DNA of 44,901 nt, taken from positions 1 to 44,901 of the IMG/VR virus record IMGVR_UViG_3300027759_000148, one strand, 5' to 3'. Below, piece after piece: positions 6,140 to 27,620 of the stretch. Position 1 is the first letter of the stretch. Each line of letters starts with the position of its first letter. A model generated the notes under the pieces. The model was not told the DNA's origin, searched no databases, and worked only from the letters and a program-made list of their open reading frames with translations. The position numbers were made by a program, and so were the translations under genes. The stretch comes from a virus.

Positions 6140-6514
6140 ATGATAGAAGTACCTTTAAAAATAGAAATTAAAGAAAGTCCAAATAAAGGACTTGGTGTGT
6201 TTGCGAAGGAAAAAATCTTAAAAGATGAAATCATTGAAATATGTCCTTTAATTAAATTAGATGTACCTCATAATTCAGATGTTTTAGATGACTACAGATT
6301 CTATTATCCAAGAAAAACGGCAAAAGATTATGTAGTTGTGTTAGGGTATGGGTCTTTGTATAATCATAACGACCAAAACAACGCTGATTGGAGAGATGGA
6401 AAACCAATGACATTTGAATTTTTTGCAACTAAGGACATTGAACTTGGTGAAGAAATTTATTTAAAATACGGTGGACCAGAATACTTCAAACAAAGGCCAA
6501 AAGATTGGTTGTAA
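6140..6514 (+). CDS. SET-domain protein, putative protein lysine methyltransferase
   Basis: A 124-aa protein consisting of a minimal SET domain and nothing else. Visible motifs in order are KGLGVFAKE near residue 17 (the SAM-binding GxG-type N-terminal motif), GYGSLYNHNDQNNADW near 70-86 (equivalent to the NHSCxPN motif) and FFATKDIELGEEIYLKYG near 94-111 (equivalent to the GEEL/F-YG end). SET proteins transfer methyl groups from S-adenosylmethionine to lysine side chains. Minimal SET proteins of this size are known from viruses and bacteria. Here the gene sits between two adhesin genes with a terminator on each side, so the substrate might be a virion protein or a host protein. The family call is good; the substrate is unknown. 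Confidence 0.75.
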   Translation: MIEVPLKIEIKESPNKGLGVFAKEKILKDEIIEICPLIKLDVPHNSDVLDDYRFYYPRKTAKDYVVVLGYGSLYNHNDQNNADWRDGKPMTFEFFATKDIELGEEIYLKYGGPEYFKQRPKDWL

Positions 6515-6597: not shown

Positions 6598-8133
6598 ATG
6601 ACACAGAATAAACTTAGAGTGAAAGGTGTTAATAGTGGTGGTGGAGTTATTTTACCACAATTAATCACTTTCACAAAAGCGGATTACGGAACTGATGTTG
6701 ATGTGATATCACAATACTTAACGTTGAAACGTGGGAATAATGCTGGACTGTTTAACACTAATGAAGGGGCAACATATAATGGTACTTTCGAAGGCGGTAA
6801 AAATCATCTATGGTGTGTGGCAAATGAAGGGGACTTTACGTATGATAGTTATGTGGATTTGTGGAATACATTTGACCCATCAACAATTGACATAACTCAA
6901 TTACAATCTGATTACGAGAATGGTGGTAACCTATTTGATTTTAGTGACAAATCAATGGTTCCTTGGGGTAGGGTTCATAATAGTATGCCTCTTGAAATGT
7001 TAAACAAAGAAATGATTATGTTGGATGTACTTGATGGTAAATTCTATAAAGTAAAATTCACTCAATGGACTAATGGAGGTGCTGGTGGTGGATTATCTTA
7101 TACTAGACAATTGTTTTATTCAGTACCGGAGGTTCTAGTGGTGAACCTAACTCTACCATTTAATGCTAATGATGGAGATACAATTGATGGACAATTCGGG
7201 TCTTCAACAGGGTATTATAAAGTTGAATATTGGGATGGGACATCTGAGGTATTAGGTGATGGTAAAGTATACGATTCAATTTCAATGAAAGCCGATGGAA
7301 TATCATCATTCTATAAACAATTCAATAGTTCAGACTTAAACAATGGACAAATAGTAATAACTAGTTGCACTTCATATGGGTCACCATCTGGAGACATTAT
7401 TTTTGTCGCATTAACTAATCCATGTTATGGTAATTTTGATGTGAATAGTCTAACTAACTTAACTTATTTACATGTTCAGAATAATGAATCACTAACATCA
7501 CTTAACGTATCTAGCTTAAGAAACTTAACGTATTTAGATATTAATGATAACCAATTAACTGAGATTTTATTTCCTCAGTTAATTCCATTGGGTGGGGTTA
7601 TGATGATTCCAGAGTTAAAAAGTTTACAGGTTATTGGTAACCCATTACTAACAACACTTATTGGTTTAAATAATTCTAACTTAACAAGTTTAAAAATTGA
7701 AAATAACAACTCATTAACATCTCTTGATGTGAGTGGTTTATCTAACTTACCAAGTTTAGAGATCAATAGTAACACATCATTAACATCACTTGATGTAACT
7801 GGTTTAATTAACGCAACACTCTTAAGAGTTTATGATAACACATCATTAACATCACTTATTGGTTTAACTGATTTAACTAACTTAACAAGTTTATTTGTTT
7901 ATTATACATCATTAACATCACTTGATATAACTGGTTTAAGTAATTTAATATATTTACAAGCTCGTGAAAATCCATTTGGCGGTACTGGTTATGACAATTT
8001 GTTAATTGAATTGGATACTAACGGTACTTCAGGAGGAACTTTCGCAGCTGGTGGTAGTACGTTTAATAGAACATCTGCTAGTAACGACGCGTTTGCTAAT
8101 TTGATTGACAAAGGTTGGTCTTTGGATATGTGA
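6598..8133 (+). CDS. Leucine-rich-repeat adhesin/receptor-binding protein
   Basis: A 511-aa protein. The N-terminus reads MTQNKLRVKGVNSGGG, a module that reappears near the C-terminus of the 687-aa LRR protein downstream. Residues about 20-260 form a region with many Gly and aromatic residues, probably the virion-attachment or beta-domain. Residues about 275-460 are irregular leucine-rich repeats of the type TSLDVSGLSNLPSLEINSN. The C-terminal cap ends NRTSASNDAFANLIDKGW, a cap I associate with phage and Bacteroidota LRR proteins and shared with the downstream protein. LRR domains usually bind proteins or glycans, so a host-receptor role is likely. Terminators lie on both sides, making it a single-gene unit. 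Confidence 0.7.
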   Translation: MTQNKLRVKGVNSGGGVILPQLITFTKADYGTDVDVISQYLTLKRGNNAGLFNTNEGATYNGTFEGGKNHLWCVANEGDFTYDSYVDLWNTFDPSTIDITQLQSDYENGGNLFDFSDKSMVPWGRVHNSMPLEMLNKEMIMLDVLDGKFYKVKFTQWTNGGAGGGLSYTRQLFYSVPEVLVVNLTLPFNANDGDTIDGQFGSSTGYYKVEYWDGTSEVLGDGKVYDSISMKADGISSFYKQFNSSDLNNGQIVITSCTSYGSPSGDIIFVALTNPCYGNFDVNSLTNLTYLHVQNNESLTSLNVSSLRNLTYLDINDNQLTEILFPQLIPLGGVMMIPELKSLQVIGNPLLTTLIGLNNSNLTSLKIENNNSLTSLDVSGLSNLPSLEINSNTSLTSLDVTGLINATLLRVYDNTSLTSLIGLTDLTNLTSLFVYYTSLTSLDITGLSNLIYLQARENPFGGTGYDNLLIELDTNGTSGGTFAAGGSTFNRTSASNDAFANLIDKGWSLDM

Positions 8134-8392: not shown

Positions 8393-10456
8393 ATGGCAAC
8401 ATTCATAACATCCAAATCAGTTGGAGAAACAATCTACATTTCTGTTCATGCAACTGGATATTGGAAATATAATCACGATGGAAGTGATTCAAGTGTATTT
8501 GTAAGTGGGGAACAAACAATCTCAGTAACAAACGTAAACGGTGAATTCACAATTATATCATGTGATTCAGATGGTAATGTAAGTGGGAATATAACTTATT
8601 TGGATTTATATAATAACCAATTAACATCATTTGACGGAACTGGTTTAACAGGTTTAACTATTTTGGGTTTATCTACTAACCAATTAACATCATTTGACGG
8701 AACTGGTTTAACAGGTTTAACTTATTTGTATTTACAGAGTAACCAATTAACATCATTTGATGGAACTGGTTTATCTAGTTTAACTACTTTGGAATTAACT
8801 AGTAACCTCTTAACATCATTTGACGGAACTGGTTTATCTAGTTTAACTGAGTTGCATTTAAGTGGACCTAGAGGTGGTGGTGGGACACTAACCTCAGTTA
8901 GTAACCTTCCATCTAGTTTAACTAACTTGTATTTACAAACTAACCAATTAACATCATTTGACGGAACTGATTTATCTAGTTTAATTACTTTGAATTTAAA
9001 TAATAACCAATTAACATCATTTGACGGAACTGATTTATCTAGTTTAACTGGTTTGTATTTAACAGGTAACTTATTAACATCATTTGACGGAACTGGGTTA
9101 TCTAGTTTAACTGATTTACGTTTACAAGGTAACCAATTAACATCATTTGACGGAACTGGATTATCTAGTTTAACTAGTTTGGGTTTACAAATTAACCAAT
9201 TAACATCATTTGACGGAACTGGTTTATCTAGTTTAACTGATTTGGAGTTACAAAATAACCTCTTAACATCATTTGACGGAACTGGTTTATCTGGTTTAAC
9301 TTATTTGGGTTTAGGTAGTAATCAATTAACATCATTTGATGGAACTGGATTATCTAGTTTAACTAGTTTGAATTTAATGGGACTTAAAAGTGGTGGTACA
9401 TTAACTTCGGTTAGTAACTTACCATCAAGTTTAACTAATTTACTTTTAAATAGTAATCAATTAACTTCATTTGACGGAACTGGTTTATCTAGTTTAACTT
9501 ATTTGGGTTTAGATAATAACCAATTAACATCATTGGATGGGACCGGATTATCTGGTTTAATTGAGTTGTATTTACAATATAACCAATTAACATCATTTGA
9601 CGGAACTGGATTATTTAGTTTAACTACTTTGGTTTTAAATAGTAACCAATTAACATCATTTGACGGAACTGATTTATCTGATTTAACTGTTTTAAATTTA
9701 GATAGTAACCAATTAACATCATTTGACGGAACAGGTTTATCTAGTTTAACTGGGTTGAATTTACAGAGTAACCAATTAACATCATTTGATGGAACTGGTT
9801 TATCTAGTTTAACTAGTTTGAAGTTATATGGTAACCCACTTACAACATTTATTGGTGGGGACATGGGTCAAATGAGTGAGTTGAATTTAAATAATTTACA
9901 ATTAACATCATTTGATGGAACTGGATTATCTAGTTTAACTTCTTTGGAATTAAATAGTAACCAATTAACATCAATTGATGTGACTGGTTTATCAAGTTTA
10001 ACTTATTTGGTTTTAAATAATAACCAATTAACATCATTGGATGTGACTGGTTTATCTGGTTTAACTTCATTAAATTTAAGTGGTAACCAATTAACACCAT
10101 CTGTAAACAATCAAGTCTTACATCAACTTAATCAAAATGGAATAATTGAAGGTAGTTTTCAATCTAGTGGTGGAAGAACATCAGCAAGTAACGCTGATTA
10201 TGATAACCTAGTAAGTTTAGGTTGGTATTTTGAAGGTTTAGATTTAATCATTGTTGGAAGTGGTAAACTAAGAGTAAAAGGAGTTAATAGTGGTGGAACT
10301 CCTCCACCCCCAACACCACAACCATGGGATGGCGGAACGATTTATAACATTGGTGCTGTCGTAACCCTTTCCAGACAAACTTGGAATTGTATCCAATATG
10401 CTCCAGCTGGTTACGGTCCATTTGGTGGATATATTGATGTTTATTGGACTTTATAA
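8393..10456 (+). CDS. Large LRR adhesin with near-identical 21-residue repeats and possible carbohydrate-binding tail
   Basis: A 687-aa protein. Residues 1-70 form an N-terminal domain. From about residue 72 to 565 there are about 22 leucine-rich repeats of 21 residues with consensus NQLTSFDGTGLSSLTxLxLxS, many nearly identical, broken twice by a variant unit (TLTSVSNLPSSLTNLYL type). The cap ends RTSASNADYDNLVSLGW as in the upstream LRR protein. After it come KLRVKGVNSGG, a PPPPTPQP linker and about 45 residues with WDGGTIYNIGAVV, QTWNC and a final YW, which resembles the small aromatic carbohydrate-binding modules of family 5/12. It is probably a receptor-binding protein that binds a cell-surface protein or glycan. 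Confidence 0.7.
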   Translation: MATFITSKSVGETIYISVHATGYWKYNHDGSDSSVFVSGEQTISVTNVNGEFTIISCDSDGNVSGNITYLDLYNNQLTSFDGTGLTGLTILGLSTNQLTSFDGTGLTGLTYLYLQSNQLTSFDGTGLSSLTTLELTSNLLTSFDGTGLSSLTELHLSGPRGGGGTLTSVSNLPSSLTNLYLQTNQLTSFDGTDLSSLITLNLNNNQLTSFDGTDLSSLTGLYLTGNLLTSFDGTGLSSLTDLRLQGNQLTSFDGTGLSSLTSLGLQINQLTSFDGTGLSSLTDLELQNNLLTSFDGTGLSGLTYLGLGSNQLTSFDGTGLSSLTSLNLMGLKSGGTLTSVSNLPSSLTNLLLNSNQLTSFDGTGLSSLTYLGLDNNQLTSLDGTGLSGLIELYLQYNQLTSFDGTGLFSLTTLVLNSNQLTSFDGTDLSDLTVLNLDSNQLTSFDGTGLSSLTGLNLQSNQLTSFDGTGLSSLTSLKLYGNPLTTFIGGDMGQMSELNLNNLQLTSFDGTGLSSLTSLELNSNQLTSIDVTGLSSLTYLVLNNNQLTSLDVTGLSGLTSLNLSGNQLTPSVNNQVLHQLNQNGIIEGSFQSSGGRTSASNADYDNLVSLGWYFEGLDLIIVGSGKLRVKGVNSGGTPPPPTPQPWDGGTIYNIGAVVTLSRQTWNCIQYAPAGYGPFGGYIDVYWTL
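8613..10095 (+). repeat. 63-nt tandem LRR-encoding repeat array
   Basis: About 22 copies of a 63-nt unit encoding NQLTSFDGTGLSSLTxLxLxS. The core encoding LTSFDGTGL is almost invariant at the DNA level, while the x positions that would face the solvent on the LRR concave surface vary. Confidence 0.85.
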
Positions 10457-10521: not shown

Positions 10522-11721
10522 TTATTTTAAGTTTTTATACAAATTTGTTTTCGGATTATATTCCAAACCATCATTACCCCCATTAAACAAGTTATAAATT
10601 AATTTATCATATGTTTTAACCAATTTCATATTATCCGCATGATATCTCATCAATACCTTATCGTTACGTTCATTATAGGAATCAATATTTTTATCATGCT
10701 CAGTTAATATATAATCCAATTGTTTAGCACCATCAACGGTATCTGAACCTTCATAATAATAACCCAAATCTTTACACATCGGAGCGTTATGTAATACAGG
10801 ATATCCCATATACGCAGCATCCAAATAAATGTAATTTAATGGATTTAATATTTGATGACAGATTAATACGTCAATATGTTGGGTTAATATAAATGCTGTT
10901 TGGTATCTACTTTCAGATGTTATTTTATTGTCTTTAAATAAATCAAAAGTCCTAATCATACCCATGAACTCCTTGTGTTTGGCAACTTTCTCGGAATTGG
11001 TCAACATTAACTTATCTATATGTTCTTTACCAATCTCACCTCGATAAGACTCTTCGGAAATCATTGCTGGTATAAGACAAAATTTAACCATGTTAAGGTT
11101 CGGTTCCATCACACCCAATCGTTTCTTTTCTTTACCGATGTTGTATCGATAATCTTTTTTAAATGAACCCTTTTTAAATCCTTTTTCAATATCAACAAGA
11201 GCCTCTAGTAGATATTGGTGATGCCATATGAAAGGAACGATAAACGCTTTAGACCGATATAGGGTATGATAATAACCACAATTAGTTTCATGTTGTTGAG
11301 GTATATACCATATTTCATCATATGCTTCATCGAATTGATATGCTTTATTCTCATCTTCTTTAAATAGAATGTTCTCAGCACTTAGAATATAATTGTTACC
11401 GCATTTGTATGCAATTATTTTTTTATTCGGTTTTGATTTAAACTTCTCAATTTCAGATTTATTAATCTGAGCTCCCATAACGATTAACAAATCCATGTCT
11501 TCGTAGTGATCCCTAAAGTTACAAATGTTAACATCGGTTAAATAACTTGGTTTAGTCGACCAATCAACATCGATTGTGTTTAATAAAGTTATTTCATATT
11601 TCTCATTCGAGTTTTTTAACAACTTAGTTAACATCAATATGTTTTGTTTAATTCCGTTTGTCCAAATCGACTCTTTATTATCTTTTAGACCGAGTGTAAT
11701 TCCAATTTTTAAATTTTTCAT
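10522..11721 (-). CDS. Glycosyltransferase-like protein, DUF2827 family
   Basis: A 399-aa protein. The start (KIGITLGLKDNKESIWTNGI near residues 5-24) and the later pattern with QHIDVLICHQILNPLNYIYLDAAYMGYPVLHNAP (about residues 282-315) match my recollection of DUF2827, a GT-B-fold family found near sugar-modification genes. In GT-B enzymes the C-terminal half binds the nucleotide sugar, and the D-A-A-Y-x-G-Y-P-V-L-H segment fits that place. The start codon overlaps the stop of the upstream J-domain gene by 4 nt, so both are translated from one message. A role could be glycosylating virion proteins or modifying host surface or phage DNA; the Thr/Pro-rich linkers of several virion proteins are possible acceptors. 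The substrate is not known. Confidence 0.7.
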   Translation of the reverse strand: MKNLKIGITLGLKDNKESIWTNGIKQNILMLTKLLKNSNEKYEITLLNTIDVDWSTKPSYLTDVNICNFRDHYEDMDLLIVMGAQINKSEIEKFKSKPNKKIIAYKCGNNYILSAENILFKEDENKAYQFDEAYDEIWYIPQQHETNCGYYHTLYRSKAFIVPFIWHHQYLLEALVDIEKGFKKGSFKKDYRYNIGKEKKRLGVMEPNLNMVKFCLIPAMISEESYRGEIGKEHIDKLMLTNSEKVAKHKEFMGMIRTFDLFKDNKITSESRYQTAFILTQHIDVLICHQILNPLNYIYLDAAYMGYPVLHNAPMCKDLGYYYEGSDTVDGAKQLDYILTEHDKNIDSYNERNDKVLMRYHADNMKLVKTYDKLIYNLFNGGNDGLEYNPKTNLYKNLK

Positions 11722-17297: not shown

Positions 17298-18422
17298 TTA
17301 AATAACGTATATTTGTCTTGGCATTGCCCTAAACTTAAGTGACTTATTTAAATTCTCAGCAATTAATGCCTCACGTTCCATTACTTTTTCAGGTTTCAAT
17401 CTTGTTAATCTACCCTCAGCACCAATTAATTCATCAATCAATTTTGTTTTTTCATCTTTTGCTTCCGTTGCCAATGCGGCATAATCCATAGTTAAATCAC
17501 CATCAGGTGTTTTAAGGTTACCGCTAAATTTACCTCTTACTCTTGCTAGCGTTTCTTTACAATAAGCAATAAACCATCGTCTAACCCAAATTTGAGATGG
17601 GTTATTAAGATCTACCCAACTAAGTTTGTCGTATGGTACATCAGACGGTAATTTAATAATATCGGGATTATTTTTTAAACATTCGTCTCTATCCGCAGGT
17701 CCAACATCATAATACCAATACCAAACTCTACCTTTCATCATTGTAGAATTACCAAAGTCAAATTTACCTCCAGGTGTGTTCATTAAGTGAACCGCCTTTT
17801 TACCTCCTGGTAATGCGGTTACTCTATATGTTAAATCCCCCGAAATAATTCTTTTCTGAATATTAATCTCTTGCATTCTCAATAACATATCAAACGCTGG
17901 CATCATAAAGTAACTTCCTGCCATGTTACCCATTTGTGCAAATCCACCCGCTCCTCCGATACCACCACCGAATTCTCCGAATCCAAATCCAGCACCAAAC
18001 ATTGAACTATTTAAAGTTGCTGGTGTGAACCATAATAACTCATTTAATTCTCTATTTTCAGGAATTTCATAAACTTGTTGACCATGTACTAATTGAATGA
18101 AGTCTTTCTTTAATACCGAATCGCCTCCAGTCTGTAAACCTACAATTTTGGAATATGCATATGTGTATCGTGTTTCATAATCTAAACTTCTTGTTGTAAA
18201 CGCTTTTGATAATGATTGGGTGTCCAAGTTTAAATTATACAAATTAGTCCACTGAGATTCAGTTAACCAATCTTGGATGTATTGAGAATATTCATCAATA
18301 GAAAATTCAAGAAGAGTGTCCATTTGTTCCTCCTCCAATTCTACACTTCTAAGTGGAGCACCTAAAACGTGTTTCACTTTTTTGTATAGGTCACTTCTTT
18401 CTGGTTCGTTAATTATTGACAT
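17298..18422 (-). CDS. Neck/head-completion protein, T4 gp13-like
   Basis: A 374-aa protein. The N-terminus has the pattern VKHVLGAPLRSVELEEEQMDTLLEFSIDEY seen in phage neck and connector proteins (LGaP, VEL, then acidic helix). The C-terminal part includes WVRRWFIAYCKETLARVRGKFSG, then DGDLTMDYAALATEAKDEKTKLIDEL, the usual helical end with the RGKFSG signature. A Gly/Phe-rich segment near residues 142-165 (GAGFGFGEFGGGIGGAGGF) is low complexity and unusual. In T4, gp13 with gp14 closes the filled head before tail joining. The genes at 21390 and 22048 look like the next steps of the same pathway, but on the other strand after an insertion of two enzyme genes. Confidence 0.6.
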   Translation of the reverse strand: MSIINEPERSDLYKKVKHVLGAPLRSVELEEEQMDTLLEFSIDEYSQYIQDWLTESQWTNLYNLNLDTQSLSKAFTTRSLDYETRYTYAYSKIVGLQTGGDSVLKKDFIQLVHGQQVYEIPENRELNELLWFTPATLNSSMFGAGFGFGEFGGGIGGAGGFAQMGNMAGSYFMMPAFDMLLRMQEINIQKRIISGDLTYRVTALPGGKKAVHLMNTPGGKFDFGNSTMMKGRVWYWYYDVGPADRDECLKNNPDIIKLPSDVPYDKLSWVDLNNPSQIWVRRWFIAYCKETLARVRGKFSGNLKTPDGDLTMDYAALATEAKDEKTKLIDELIGAEGRLTRLKPEKVMEREALIAENLNKSLKFRAMPRQIYVI

Positions 18423-18447: not shown

Positions 18448-19536
18448 TTATTTTGTTCTTAACAAATATAATTCGTTAACAAATTTCCAATTAACGTGAT
18501 TCCAAAAATTATTTATATATTCATCACGTTTATTACGATATTTTAGATAGTATGCGTGTTCCCACACATCAAGACCTAACAATGGATAACCACCATCCTT
18601 AACGACATTCATTAATGGATTATCTTGGTTAGGTGTGGAAATAATTTTTAATCTATTATTTTTAGTTAAAATTAACCAAGCCCACCCTGATCCAAATTGA
18701 TCTTTAGCAACCTGATTAAATTCGTCTTTTAATTTTTTAATATTTCCGTATTGTTTTGTGATTTTTTCATATACTCCACCACTTGGTTTTTGTTTAGTTG
18801 GGCTTAACATTTTCCAAAAAAGTGCGTGGTTAAAGGCTCCACCTGCATTATTTCTAACCTTAGTGTCATATTTACTAATGTTTTTAACTATGTCTTCCAA
18901 TTCAACCTCACCTTTTTTATTTGCAAGAGCATCGTTTAATTTTTTAACATAACCTTTATAGTGTTTGTTGTAATGAACGTCCATAGTTTCAGGATCCACA
19001 AATTGTTTCATAGATGAATATGAATACGGTAATTTTTCAATACCAATTTTTTTCATCTCCATTAAAAAATCTTTCTTAATATTTTGTTTTTCTGAAATTA
19101 AAATTTGTTCATTAATAAGATTAATTTTATTGTTAATACCTTTTAATCCTTCAAAAACAAATTCATTAAATTGTGGATATTCTTCTTCAAACATTTTGAT
19201 TAGTCGACCAGCGTAGGCATTTGCTTCATCTTCATTCTGACCCCCAATGTTTGGGCCTTGTTCTCTTTTAAGAATATCTCTTTGATAAGAATGAACCCAC
19301 TCATGAGCCAATGTTCTCATTATATCACGATTTAATCTACCATCAGTTAAGACTTTAATACCATCTTTAGGATGTTGACTACCTGTAGTCATATTACTTG
19401 TTTTTTTCCCCAAAAATTGAATAGTAATATCATCCTTTAATTGATAATTCCTTTGTAAGAATTTAATAAAGGTGTGAATTAACTCGTTATACTTTGGATC
19501 AAGTCCTGAATCTATACGTTTGATACTTACTTTCAT
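18448..19536 (-). CDS. Zincin-type metallopeptidase fused to Fe/Mn superoxide dismutase
   Basis: A 362-aa two-domain protein. Residues about 1-130 hold a gluzincin-like site: TLAHEWVHSYQ with H78, E79 and H82, and a downstream NEDEANAYAGRL whose E102 or E104 could be the third zinc ligand. After a lysine-rich helix, residues about 167-360 are a complete Fe/Mn-SOD: LPYSYSSMKQFV, H188 in DVHYNKHYKGYV, H237 in NNAGGAFNHALFW, FGSGWAWL near 281-288, NQDNPLM near 303-309 and D323/H327 in LDVWEH. All four metal ligands are present. The GG before FNH and the Gln in NQDNPL are the features usually seen in Mn-type enzymes. SOD converts superoxide to oxygen and peroxide. No signal peptide; cytoplasmic or virion-carried. 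Confidence 0.85.
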   Translation of the reverse strand: MKVSIKRIDSGLDPKYNELIHTFIKFLQRNYQLKDDITIQFLGKKTSNMTTGSQHPKDGIKVLTDGRLNRDIMRTLAHEWVHSYQRDILKREQGPNIGGQNEDEANAYAGRLIKMFEEEYPQFNEFVFEGLKGINNKINLINEQILISEKQNIKKDFLMEMKKIGIEKLPYSYSSMKQFVDPETMDVHYNKHYKGYVKKLNDALANKKGEVELEDIVKNISKYDTKVRNNAGGAFNHALFWKMLSPTKQKPSGGVYEKITKQYGNIKKLKDEFNQVAKDQFGSGWAWLILTKNNRLKIISTPNQDNPLMNVVKDGGYPLLGLDVWEHAYYLKYRNKRDEYINNFWNHVNWKFVNELYLLRTK

Positions 19537-19567: not shown

Positions 19568-21331
19568 TTACCTTCTCTTATTAATTAAACCAAGTATTTC
19601 CTCAACAACATCACCAACGTTTTCAGGTTGTTCGTCCCCCATAACGGTTCTAATGACTTCTTTTTTACGATTTAGAATGTCATATACCGCACCTTCTATT
19701 GTGTTTTCATATAATGGGTAATAAACAAGTACATTTGATTTTTGACCATAACGATACGCCCTATCTTCAGCCTGAGCGTGTTCGGCGGGAACAAATGATA
19801 GGTCATTCATAATCACAACCTCAGCAGCAGTTAAGGTTAATCCAACACCCGCAGCCTTTAAGTTACCAACAAACACTTTAATTTTATCGTTCTCCTGAAA
19901 CTCATCAACCGCATTTTGACGATGAGGTTTGGAACAACTACCATCTAAATAAACTGCTTGTTTTCCAAAATGATTATAGATTGTTTGTAAAGTATCAGTA
20001 AAATTGGTAAAGATTATAACTTTCTTACCTTGTTCGATAATGTTCTCAACAAATTCAATTGTTTGTTTTGTTTTTTCATTTGCAATGATCTTACGTACCT
20101 TCATTAATTTTGAGAACTGAACGGTAAGTGACGATGACTCATCCTTTTTATTGTCAAACCATTCATAATATTCCCCCATCAACTCTTCATACTCTTTAGA
20201 TTTCAAACGAAGATATACAGGAGAAATGATTTTATCAGGAAGATCTAACACATCTTCTTTTAATCTACGAAGTATTTGTTTTGAAGTTCGGTCTCTTAAT
20301 TCTTCCAAATTAGATGCCCCCGTTACATTCCAAACTTTTCGTTTACCTGCCATAAATTGATAACCTTGACAATAACGAATTGCGTAAGCCATCCAATTTT
20401 GTGCAACGGGTGATTCAATAATGTTTAGTAAGTTATAATAGTTCATTGGTCGAGAAGTCATTGGGGTTCCCGTTAATAACCAAACTCTTTTAATGTCCTT
20501 AACAAAATGGTTAATAATCTTTGTTCGTTGAGCTTGGGGATTTGATATCATATGTGCCTCATCTAAGATAACCAACTCAAATTCCGATTGTTTCAACAAT
20601 GACGTACCCTTTTTTTCCATATCATGGAAGTTTTTAAGAATGTCATAGTTTACGATAACAAAATCAGACTCAGTTGAAAATTTCTTCCCCTCTGCAATAT
20701 ATACAGGTCGATCAGTGTAGTTTTCAATCTCACGTTGCCAGTTAATCTTTAATGATGCTGGACATATAATTAATATTTTCTTTGCACCTGTCTCTAAAGC
20801 CGCAATAATAGTTGCGGTCGTTTTACCAAGACCCATATCATCAGCAAGAATGAATCGTCTTGATCCTGCCAATTTTTCTACCGCTTCTTTTTGGTGTTCC
20901 AATGGTGGTCGGTGGTCGTATTTAGAGTAATCTACCTCAACTTTCTCAACGTTGTGAGTTTTTATTAATGAAGATTTAGGAACCCAAAATTCTGTTAAAG
21001 GATCCTTCTCAAAAAATTTACCCCAAATATGATATGATTTTTCTTTCTCAACTAATAATTTTTCAATGTAGATTTTTTCTGGTGTTTCCATCAGATATCT
21101 TTCTTCGGTAAACTTTTTTGCGAAATACGTATCAAGATCGACCCACTTACGAGCAATCTTAGGGACCGTATCGTAATAATTTATAATGTAATCAGATTGA
21201 GTCCTTGTTGGATAAAACTTTTTGTTAGTTTCTTTTTTTGCTTTTAAGTACAATATATGGTTGTTGGATCCCGAATACGAGTCCAATAACGACAAAGCCT
21301 TATGCTCTATTAATGATGGGGTAACGTCCAA
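19568..21331 (-). CDS. SNF2-family DNA helicase/translocase
   Basis: The frame is open to an ATG at 21388, but that ATG and its hydrophobic first 19 codons lie over and upstream of the promoter motif at 21376-21382, so I prefer the TTG at 21331 (587 aa). In 587-aa numbering: QKEAVEKLAG (Q motif) near 147, Walker A DDMGLGKT ending at 171, DEAH near 267, LLTGTP near 296, and the second RecA lobe with IIFTNFTDTL, VGLTLTAAEVVI and a final AEDRAYRYGQ arginine-finger motif. This is the SMARCAL1-like branch of SNF2 enzymes, which remodel forked DNA and are common in phages, where T4 UvsW has a related role in recombination and origin control. All core ATPase motifs are intact. Confidence 0.88.
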   Translation of the reverse strand: MDVTPSLIEHKALSLLDSYSGSNNHILYLKAKKETNKKFYPTRTQSDYIINYYDTVPKIARKWVDLDTYFAKKFTEERYLMETPEKIYIEKLLVEKEKSYHIWGKFFEKDPLTEFWVPKSSLIKTHNVEKVEVDYSKYDHRPPLEHQKEAVEKLAGSRRFILADDMGLGKTTATIIAALETGAKKILIICPASLKINWQREIENYTDRPVYIAEGKKFSTESDFVIVNYDILKNFHDMEKKGTSLLKQSEFELVILDEAHMISNPQAQRTKIINHFVKDIKRVWLLTGTPMTSRPMNYYNLLNIIESPVAQNWMAYAIRYCQGYQFMAGKRKVWNVTGASNLEELRDRTSKQILRRLKEDVLDLPDKIISPVYLRLKSKEYEELMGEYYEWFDNKKDESSSLTVQFSKLMKVRKIIANEKTKQTIEFVENIIEQGKKVIIFTNFTDTLQTIYNHFGKQAVYLDGSCSKPHRQNAVDEFQENDKIKVFVGNLKAAGVGLTLTAAEVVIMNDLSFVPAEHAQAEDRAYRYGQKSNVLVYYPLYENTIEGAVYDILNRKKEVIRTVMGDEQPENVGDVVEEILGLINKRR

Positions 21332-21366
21332 AATTTTGTTTTTTATAAAAATAACAATAAAAAAGA

Positions 21367-21373
21367 TATTTAT
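21367..21373 (+). promoter_or_regulatory. TATTTAT promoter-like motif, tail operon start
   Basis: GATATTTATCAATAAA lies 16 nt before the ATG at 21390. With the next site it forms the inverted repeat TATTTAT-CA-ATAAATA. Confidence 0.55.
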
Positions 21374-21375
21374 CA

Positions 21376-21382
21376 ATAAATA
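21376..21382 (-). promoter_or_regulatory. TATTTAT promoter-like motif, SNF2 helicase gene
   Basis: Minus-strand CGTATTTATTGATAAA is back to back with the motif at 21367-21373, 2 nt apart. Its place inside the longest reading frame argues for a helicase start downstream, such as the TTG at 21331. Confidence 0.5.
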
Positions 21383-21389
21383 CGACAAA

Positions 21390-26780: not shown

Positions 26781-27620
26781 ATGAGAAATTATCATAAAAT
26801 TATTGTTAAACAAATTATTAACGAAATTATAGAGGAAAGACAAACACCGGTAATGAAATACTATGCGTTTGACTGGGATGATAATCTTATGTTCATGCCA
26901 ACAAAAATTTACCTTAAAGATGATAACGGTAAGAGTGTTGGGATGTCAACTGAAGATTTTGCAGAATATAGAACTGAGATTGGTAAAGAACCTTTTGAGT
27001 ATGAGGGTCACACCATAGTATCTTTTGATGAAGAACCTTTCAGAGATTTTAGGGTGTCGGGAGACAAAAAATTTATATCGGATGCGATGTCCGCACCAAC
27101 AGGTCCGTCATGGGATGACTTTGTGGAAGCAATTAATAGTGGGTCAATATTCGCAATTGTTACGGCAAGAGGTCACACACCTTCTGTATTAAAAGAGGCA
27201 GTTTACGAATTAATTAAACAAAATAAACATGGGTTGGACTCAAATCAGTTATCAAAAAATCTTTTAAAATATAGAGATTTAGCAGATGAAGACAAATTAT
27301 CTAAAGATCAACTAATACGATCTTACTTAGATATGTGTCGTTTTCACCCTGTGTCTTTCGGAGACGGTTCTGCAACTAACCCCGAACAAGGAAAAATAGA
27401 TGCAATGGAGGAATTTGTTACTTATGTGAAACATTTATCACATTCATTACAACAAAAGGCATTTATGAAAAACAAGATTAGTAATTACTTTACACCATTT
27501 ATTGGATTTTCAGATGATGATGTAAGAAATGTAGAAACTATGAAGAAACATTTTGATAAAAAAGAAGATAATATATTAAAGACTTATTTAACCGCAGGAG
27601 GACAAAAGAAATTATATTAA
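26781..27620 (+). CDS. HAD-superfamily hydrolase
   Basis: A 279-aa protein. HAD motifs: motif I YYAFDWDDNLM with nucleophile D31 and acid D33, motif II IVTARGH near 131-137 and motif IV GFSDDDVRNVETM near 242-254. A long cap insertion lies between motifs I and II. HAD enzymes form an aspartyl-phosphate intermediate and mostly act as phosphatases; T4 PseT 3'-phosphatase belongs to this superfamily. The first 25 residues (MRNYHKIIVKQIINEIIEER) form a separate basic-acidic helix before the catalytic domain, reminiscent of T4 capsid-targeting leaders with I/L-x-E cleavage sites. The gene lies between sheath and tube with its own promoter and no obvious partner. Confidence 0.75.
   Translation: MRNYHKIIVKQIINEIIEERQTPVMKYYAFDWDDNLMFMPTKIYLKDDNGKSVGMSTEDFAEYRTEIGKEPFEYEGHTIVSFDEEPFRDFRVSGDKKFISDAMSAPTGPSWDDFVEAINSGSIFAIVTARGHTPSVLKEAVYELIKQNKHGLDSNQLSKNLLKYRDLADEDKLSKDQLIRSYLDMCRFHPVSFGDGSATNPEQGKIDAMEEFVTYVKHLSHSLQQKAFMKNKISNYFTPFIGFSDDDVRNVETMKKHFDKKEDNILKTYLTAGGQKKLY

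Follow-up and report, generated by a model that had tools for sequence, protein, structure and literature searches.

Why would a virus place a metallopeptidase and a superoxide dismutase (SOD) on one chain, and where would that chain act? The question is raised by a single open reading frame (ORF) of 362 codons with an ATG start on the minus strand of IMG/VR virus record IMGVR_UViG_3300027759_000148 (Table 1). The whole stretch analysed, 44,901 nucleotides long, is referred to here as the window. An earlier note, made from the letters alone, had read this gene as a zincin-type peptidase fused to a complete Mn-type SOD between neck and helicase genes.

A recurrent peptidase and SOD chain

With the whole protein as query, relatives were encoded in 144 of 150 candidate IMG/VR stretches; the best 80 of the 144 were kept, corresponding to 80 loci on 80 contigs, two of them incomplete. 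With an alignment as query, at least 523 relatives were found among at least 599 stretches, and again the best 80 were kept. Together, 158 IMG/VR loci yielded 92 distinct proteins, eight of which end with their stretch, and HExxH and the SOD motif are both present in all 92. When the peptidase alone served as query, both parts were found in 64 of 66 newly fetched loci, the other two being incomplete. All these relatives are best-scoring sets, and SOD-less relatives at lower similarity could lie outside them. Contigs carrying the chain reach 296 kb. The same two-domain architecture in other phages, which the earlier note had proposed to look for, thus exists on the 80 best-matching contigs. Its recurrence there (two loci incomplete) and in 92/92 distinct proteins rejects an assembly error, the alternative the note had raised, and likewise a chance joining of peptidase and SOD.

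The note's author knew of no such fusion, and neither the fusion nor its packaging was found reported in the literature searched. In a phages collection, 28 records match at E ≤ 1e-5, all within the SOD part, and the peptidase part is covered in none of the 28; several of these SOD-bearing records resemble host DNA. Three further SODs from phage records were inspected, and each is encoded by a single-domain gene of 182–199 aa; one of the records (MW462191) looks bacterial by its neighbours.

Table 1 Coordinates of the fused gene, its parts and its neighbours in the window
Feature	Position	Strand	Basis
Whole ORF: zincin-like peptidase, linker and Fe/Mn-type superoxide dismutase, 362 aa	18448..19536	-	ORF, Pfam, relatives
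Zincin-like metallopeptidase domain, residues 1-128	19153..19536	-	HExxH, ExEAN invariant; AF2; hhalign
HEWVH, residues 78-82, in predicted helix 70-87	19291..19305	-	alignment, AF2
NEDEAN, residues 101-106, in predicted helix 100-119	19219..19236	-	alignment, AF2
Linker, residues 129-160, L/I-x-E-rich	19057..19152	-	representatives alignment, pLDDT <50
Putative prohead-protease site I141-N-E143↓Q	19108..19116	-	48 representatives
Putative prohead-protease site I147-S-E149↓K	19090..19098	-	48 representatives
Putative prohead-protease site L158-M-E160↓M161, abutting canonical SOD start	19057..19065	-	L/I-x-E↓M, 47/48
Mn/Fe superoxide dismutase, residues 161-362, ligands H188, H237, D323, H327	18451..19056	-	Pfam, PDB, alignment, fold
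Head-tail adaptor-like (neck) gene, downstream	17298..18422	-	phrog_211 E 5.5e-10
Helicase gene, upstream	19568..21388	-	phrog_62 E 1.9e-114

By its sequence, the stretch from residue 161 to 362 is a complete SOD of the Mn type, with metal and activity predicted. The HMM check suggested for it gave clear matches, Sod_Fe_N at residues 166–245 (E 3e-20) and Sod_Fe_C at 252–355 (E 9.5e-40) both lying well above the curated Pfam cut-offs, and the four metal ligands named in the note are present and invariant in 45 aligned sequences. Among NCBIfam models, SOD [Mn] scores highest, yet under that model's whole-protein cut-off. A PDB sequence search returned 161 distinct matches, of which the 60 listed all fall in the SOD part, the best being a Sphingobacterium Mn-SOD. 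In a VIA fold comparison, the 50 matches listed have Z 21.8–23.0 and rmsd 2.5–3.0 over 189–200 aligned residues, and all start at model residues 157–160. The SOD assigned to the C-terminal 195 residues is therefore present, although SOD proper starts at residue 161, seven residues earlier than had been supposed.

At the other end of the chain, HEWVH and NEDEAN occur where the note had placed them, with H78, E79, H82, E102 and E104 invariant in the 45-row alignment. HExxH followed by a downstream Glu helix is the zincin pattern, and E102 or E104 is a candidate third zinc ligand. We take the ExxAN features to be ImmA-like and, from these motifs, read the N-terminal domain as a zincin. AlphaFold2 (AF2) modelled the whole protein with a mean pLDDT of 75.5 and a pTM of 0.50, drawing the peptidase as an alpha/beta domain with pLDDT 70–95 per ten residues up to residue 120. 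Structure prediction placed each motif in a helix. When the whole model was compared with solved folds, SODs took up the entire hit list, so that the absence of zincins from it carries no weight. In the profile check, no match of the peptidase part reached a curated Pfam cut-off; members of a 23-row alignment matched DUF6055 (16/23), DUF4344 (5), SprT-like (5), M76 (4), M91 (3) and M78 (3) only weakly, with E 0.00087 at best. Pfam, NCBIfam, PDB sequence and PHROGs (no cut-offs) searches with the peptidase and with those of the third modules described below that were tried yielded nothing above a cut-off and no trusted match. The domain extent given as 130 residues was nearly right, the peptidase covering residues 1–128 and a separate conserved linker following at 129–160.

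To compare loci, the 90 proteins with a readable SOD end were reduced to 48 representatives under 90% identity. The neck and helicase setting claimed for the gene holds across them: the helicase gene lies upstream in 48/48 (gap 19–1032 nt) and the neck gene downstream in 45/48 (gap 24–1422 nt, mostly <50), the other three being off the contig. The window gave no Rfam match, and ARAGORN found no tRNAs in loci L083–L097. Elsewhere in the window, the protein at 10522–11721 matches DUF2827 over its full length (E 1.6e-98), and that at 6140–6514 (124 aa) resembles a SET-domain methyltransferase by eye, with one weak PHROG. At 8393–10456, a highly repetitive protein of 687 aa shows leucine-rich repeats of about 20 residues by eye and has a PHROG in common with the protein at 6598–8133.

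The linker and a gp21-like prohead protease of carrier phages

Residues 129–169 have pLDDT <50 in the AF2 model, with a low-confidence helix drawn at 134–153. This first linker carries up to three L/I-x-E motifs in the ORF and its relatives. Position 141 is L or I in 48/48 representatives and position 143 is E in 45/48; position 149 is E in 38/48 and D in 8/48; position 158 is L or I in 47/48, and E160-M161 is invariant in 48/48. Altogether 152 L/I-x-E fall within the 1816 aa of linker 1, a density of 8.4 per 100; shuffles that preserve composition gave 75.4 ± 6.9, and none of 2000 reached the observed count. Elsewhere the motif is sparse: 37 in 5819 residues of peptidase (0.64 per 100), 59 in 9423 of SOD (0.63 per 100) and, as a control, 27 in 2550 residues of twelve cellular SODs (1.06 per 100). 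Glu at +2 from L/I scores highest of all tested combinations of residue and offset, with z 11.7 in linker 1 and 10.5 in the second linker found behind the SOD of longer relatives; the 48 representatives are akin to each other, so that z-scores and shuffle counts are no independent tests. Linker 1 shows a helical pattern as well, with enrichment of Glu at +3 (z 8.8), of Lys at −3 (z 8.1) and of Gln at +4 (z 7.0), and part of its signal is what one would expect of an amphipathic interaction helix.

The motif corresponds to the specificity of the T4 prohead protease gp21, L/I-X-E with cleavage following the Glu; residues 8 and 10 (P3 and P1) of the 10-residue IPIII tag control processing, and phiKZ propeptides have redundant cleavage sites (PMC9026906, available in part). 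As in T4-type internal proteins, L/I-x-E stands here between a part that would be removed and a mature part, as judged from sequence. A cut at E160↓M161 would leave eight residues before LPY, compared with 7, 7, 7, 7 and 8 in five leaderless cellular SODs, and since the VIA matches listed start at 157–160, cleavage at this last site would free a SOD of canonical length.

A gp21-like protease (PF03420) is encoded in 1/13 and 7/10 carrier contigs examined, 8/23 in all. It was not found in the other 15/23, among them contigs of 160, 224 and 274 kb, all of which may be fragments; tblastn of G001 (160 kb) with the capsid protein and protease of G002 gave no match, and neither a gp21 nor a capsid gene was recognised among the window ORFs scanned, a subset of all. 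Where the protease gene occurs, scaffold and capsid genes lie near it. The capsid protein has a 60-residue leader ending LINE↓A in 8/8 cases examined (six different sequences), and the T4 gp23 record has FLTE↓A at 65, in agreement with the published gp23 propeptide length (PMC9026906, in its accessible part). The two sites are equated by eye, because the automatic gp23 alignment splits the motif. Five L/I-x-E fall in the first 60 residues of the capsid protein in 7/7 sequences counted, and 3–6 in the remaining 549–576 residues; for T4 gp23 the counts are four in the leader and four in the rest. At the sequence level, capsid leader and remainder show the same L/I-x-E contrast as linker and folded domains. 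Protease and gp23-like capsid protein with its site are thus found in one genome for 8/23 carrier contigs, the window contig being outside this set. By eye, portal or terminase genes appear broken by intein-like (Hint) sequence in L258 and L260 (portal) and at L083:416–1588.

Third modules and tagged relatives of the peptidase

The chain often continues behind the SOD. In the 87 of 92 distinct proteins with a recognised SOD end (of the five dropped, three are incomplete and two, L147 and L158, are likewise extended), the ORF extends >25 residues past that end in 50. Grouped by similarity, the 50 extensions comprise 23 of type b, a group that includes carriers of a type d module (for example L041, L042, L135 and L140), 16 of type a and 11 of type c. 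Each begins with a second linker in which L/I-x-E occurs within the first 40 residues (50/50). After removal of 19 near-copies, the motif lies in the first 18 residues in 31/31 and two or more copies lie in the first 40 in 22/31; 56 were observed against 23.3 ± 4.1 in shuffles. Within the first 24 residues, Glu at +2 is followed in strength by Lys at −3 and Ser at +3 (z 5.5 each) and Asn at +1 (z 4.3), enrichments that may stem in part from one inherited K-x-x-L-N-E-S string.

Searches of the phages collection at E ≤ 0.01 returned nothing for modules a, b and c. Twelve type b sequences share two invariant Glu in the linker as well as invariant D192, Q206 and K208, and the AF2 model of this module has pLDDT <50 at residues 1–24. 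Its best Foldseek matches are SPARDA complexes and I-Ssp6803I (E 0.057–0.1), and VIA comparison with such nuclease folds gave Z up to 6.2, under the level held safe, so that the modelled likeness of type b to PD-(D/E)XK nucleases is weak. The active-site signature applied here is what we take to be that of the PD-(D/E)XK family; inspection by eye alone shows a similar pattern in type a. The peptidase and SOD core was also placed on a tree, with 45 of 48 rows labelled by module and 13/45 inner branches weak; there the module label needs 16 changes, against a possible minimum of 4 and 25.5 for shuffled labels; it is therefore clustered yet often changing. Peptidase and SOD remain joined while the C-terminal module swaps often.

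The peptidase also has relatives outside the fusion. A profile of nine phage proteins, seven from IMG/VR and the others from Synechococcus phages B23 and S-SRM01, aligns to the peptidase domain with an hhalign probability of 99.4% (E 6e-22). In B23 gp332 the peptidase stands without a partner domain and is preceded by an N-terminal tag similar, by eye, to the T4 IPII and IPIII tags; the peptidase of S-SRM01 gp257 has no tag, and the nearby gp258 cytidylyltransferase has a similar one. The IMG/VR relatives were traced via a peptidase on the Prochlorococcus single-cell contig L242, viral in IMG/VR as L284, and 12 loci gave 11 peptidase proteins, nine of them distinct. Eight of these nine have an N-terminal lysine-rich tag ending in L/I-x-E, and eight, not the same eight, have L/I-x-E directly before the peptidase. 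Judged by these tagged relatives, other phages seem to carry the peptidase as tagged cargo as well. A peptidase-profile search of genome contigs gave 85 stretches, of which three passed, one (Deltaproteobacteria) probably by chance; SOD is joined to the peptidase in none of the three.

An excess of N-terminal tags across genomes is only suggestive: random draws were as high in 13/2000 for G001 and 420/2000 for G002, and in 0/2000 for the window, but its seven hits include ordinary enzymes. At window positions 26781–27620, a protein that is HAD-like by eye has an N-terminal leader with I-x-E motifs; G002 86278–87192 and the 5′-nucleotidase of Flavobacterium phage immuto (L264:4884–5483) have L/I-x-E leaders before a similar domain, possibly another tagged head cargo. 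Adjacent genes at L284 473–6337, several with MKxLIRKILKEE-type starts, suggest a cluster of tagged cargo proteins. The 907-aa NadR-annotated protein of immuto (L264:2159–4882) appears, by eye and by a weak tblastn match, to combine a similar zincin domain with nucleotidyltransferase parts; it is a candidate for another such polyprotein, here from a phage in culture.

Proposed packaged cargo, its alternatives and known systems

Taken together, these observations make it fairly probable, in our view, that the chain is a polyprotein of capsid cargo from a T4-like phage, to be cut inside the prohead and ejected with the genome; packaging, cleavage, ejection and the enzymes' activities are what we infer. 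The chain would enter the prohead, probably via the amphipathic linker as an internal capsid-targeting segment, which is a guess, since the ORF starts with a structured peptidase in place of the N-terminal targeting sequence of 10–19 residues of T4-type proteins. The gp21-like protease would then cleave the linker after the Glu of L/I-x-E, E160↓M161 last, releasing a canonical-length SOD, a separate small metallopeptidase and, in longer relatives, the third module. The enzymes would remain in the head and leave with the genome; in the cell, the SOD would clear superoxide from the first minutes of infection, its source perhaps being disturbed respiration or light, and the peptidase would act on a host target. 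By the T4 standard a folded peptidase of 16 kDa is large as a propeptide, and in giant phages >100 residues are removed (PMC5694885, available in part). Virion proteomics was not found in the literature searched, including the accessible part of PMC8557907. The virion association that the earlier note called conceivable is now better founded, by prohead-protease-type joint motifs in addition to gene neighbours. A bolder version is plausible, if somewhat short of probable: L/I-x-E linkers would both target modular cargo polyproteins to the prohead and be cut there, one gene would deliver peptidase, SOD and a swappable, partly nuclease-like module at ejection, and the linkers would be general sockets for effector exchange.

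Other readings account for part of the data. The chain might work unpackaged during infection as an ordinary bifunctional enzyme, a stress-lowering SOD tethered to the peptidase by an amphipathic linker. The invariant SOD ligands and the amphipathic pattern of linker 1 suit this, as do Pseudomonas phage Callisto, whose stand-alone SOD gene has clpX, clpS and a small heat shock gene nearby, and a Microcystis-virus Fe/Mn-SOD proposed as a host ROS buffer (PMC12542629, in its available text). We nonetheless judge it rather unlikely, because it leaves unexplained the Glu peak at exactly +2 before unrelated modules, the L/I-x-E at every joint and the conserved neck-gene adjacency. The related suggestion in the earlier note, a peptidase that targets the SOD within a stable two-domain enzyme, is the less likely reading, since the linker looks cut-ready and longer relatives repeat the joint type.

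Were the zincin domain itself to cut the linker, with the parts then working in the infected cell, its presence in all 92 distinct chains and the low linker pLDDT (<50) would follow readily. Such self-processing is nevertheless improbable: zincins often favour a hydrophobic P1′, and the motif fits known prohead-protease specificity and recurs at joints away from the peptidase and in the capsid protein. Translation could also start a second time at M161, so that free SOD is made beside the long chain; M161 is invariant in 48/48 at the canonical SOD start, and T4 gene 21 has an internal start (record note; PMC9026906, part available). A Shine-Dalgarno-like motif precedes it in only 2/48, though such phages may not depend on one, and the invariant E160, the other sites and the C-terminal joints would go unexplained, which makes an internal start very improbable. 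The least probable reading is a structural protein of the neck or head, with the two folds serving only as building blocks. It would account for the conserved adjacency to the neck gene; against it stand the strict conservation of the motif residues in both domains and the frequent gain and loss of C-terminal modules.

If the cargo reading is right, an antioxidant enzyme travels in a phage head and is injected from it, and the prohead protease adds the unpacking of polyproteins to its known roles in shell maturation and tag trimming. The reading would further supply a culture-free rule for spotting injected effectors (unrelated domains, flexible L/I-x-E linkers and adjacency to head or neck genes) and, in types a to d, a delimited group of uncharacterised modules.

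Among known systems, stand-alone Fe/Mn-SODs of phage records and bacteria have fold and ligands in common with the SOD part; bacterial SODs are 46–54% identical among the matches listed, and matches occur in 285/295 genomes from the class to which a Flavobacteriales MAG belongs. B23 gp332 and S-SRM01 gp257 have a homologous zincin domain with different partners and no SOD, and the immuto NadR-annotated protein, a short weak tblastn match (E 2e-3), likewise has other partners and no SOD. SOD is named among the virion enzymes of giant eukaryotic viruses, but the reference cited in the available part of PMC9405923 concerns a Cu,Zn-SOD, whose family is unrelated, and these viruses are unrelated too. 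Similar as well are the ejection proteins of giant phages (phiKZ, SPN3US), which lose a long N-terminal part when a prohead protease cuts after Glu and which belong to phages with many internal proteins; the phiKZ motif differs, being S/A-x-E (PMC9026906, in the text available), and the accessible part of PMC5694885 makes no mention of propeptides that are folded enzymes. T4 IPI, IPII, IPIII and Alt have a capsid targeting sequence, are cut by gp21 and are ejected. Alike are the L/I-x-E joints, a group with gp21-like protease and gp23-like capsid protein, and a gene that adjoins morphogenesis genes. Here, in contrast, internal joints connect several folded domains in a single chain that lacks an N-terminal tag, and the cargo includes a SOD, unmentioned for T4 in the available part of PMC9026906. 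By analogy, the chain would work like the T4 internal proteins, yet by the tag criterion it is not classed as one.
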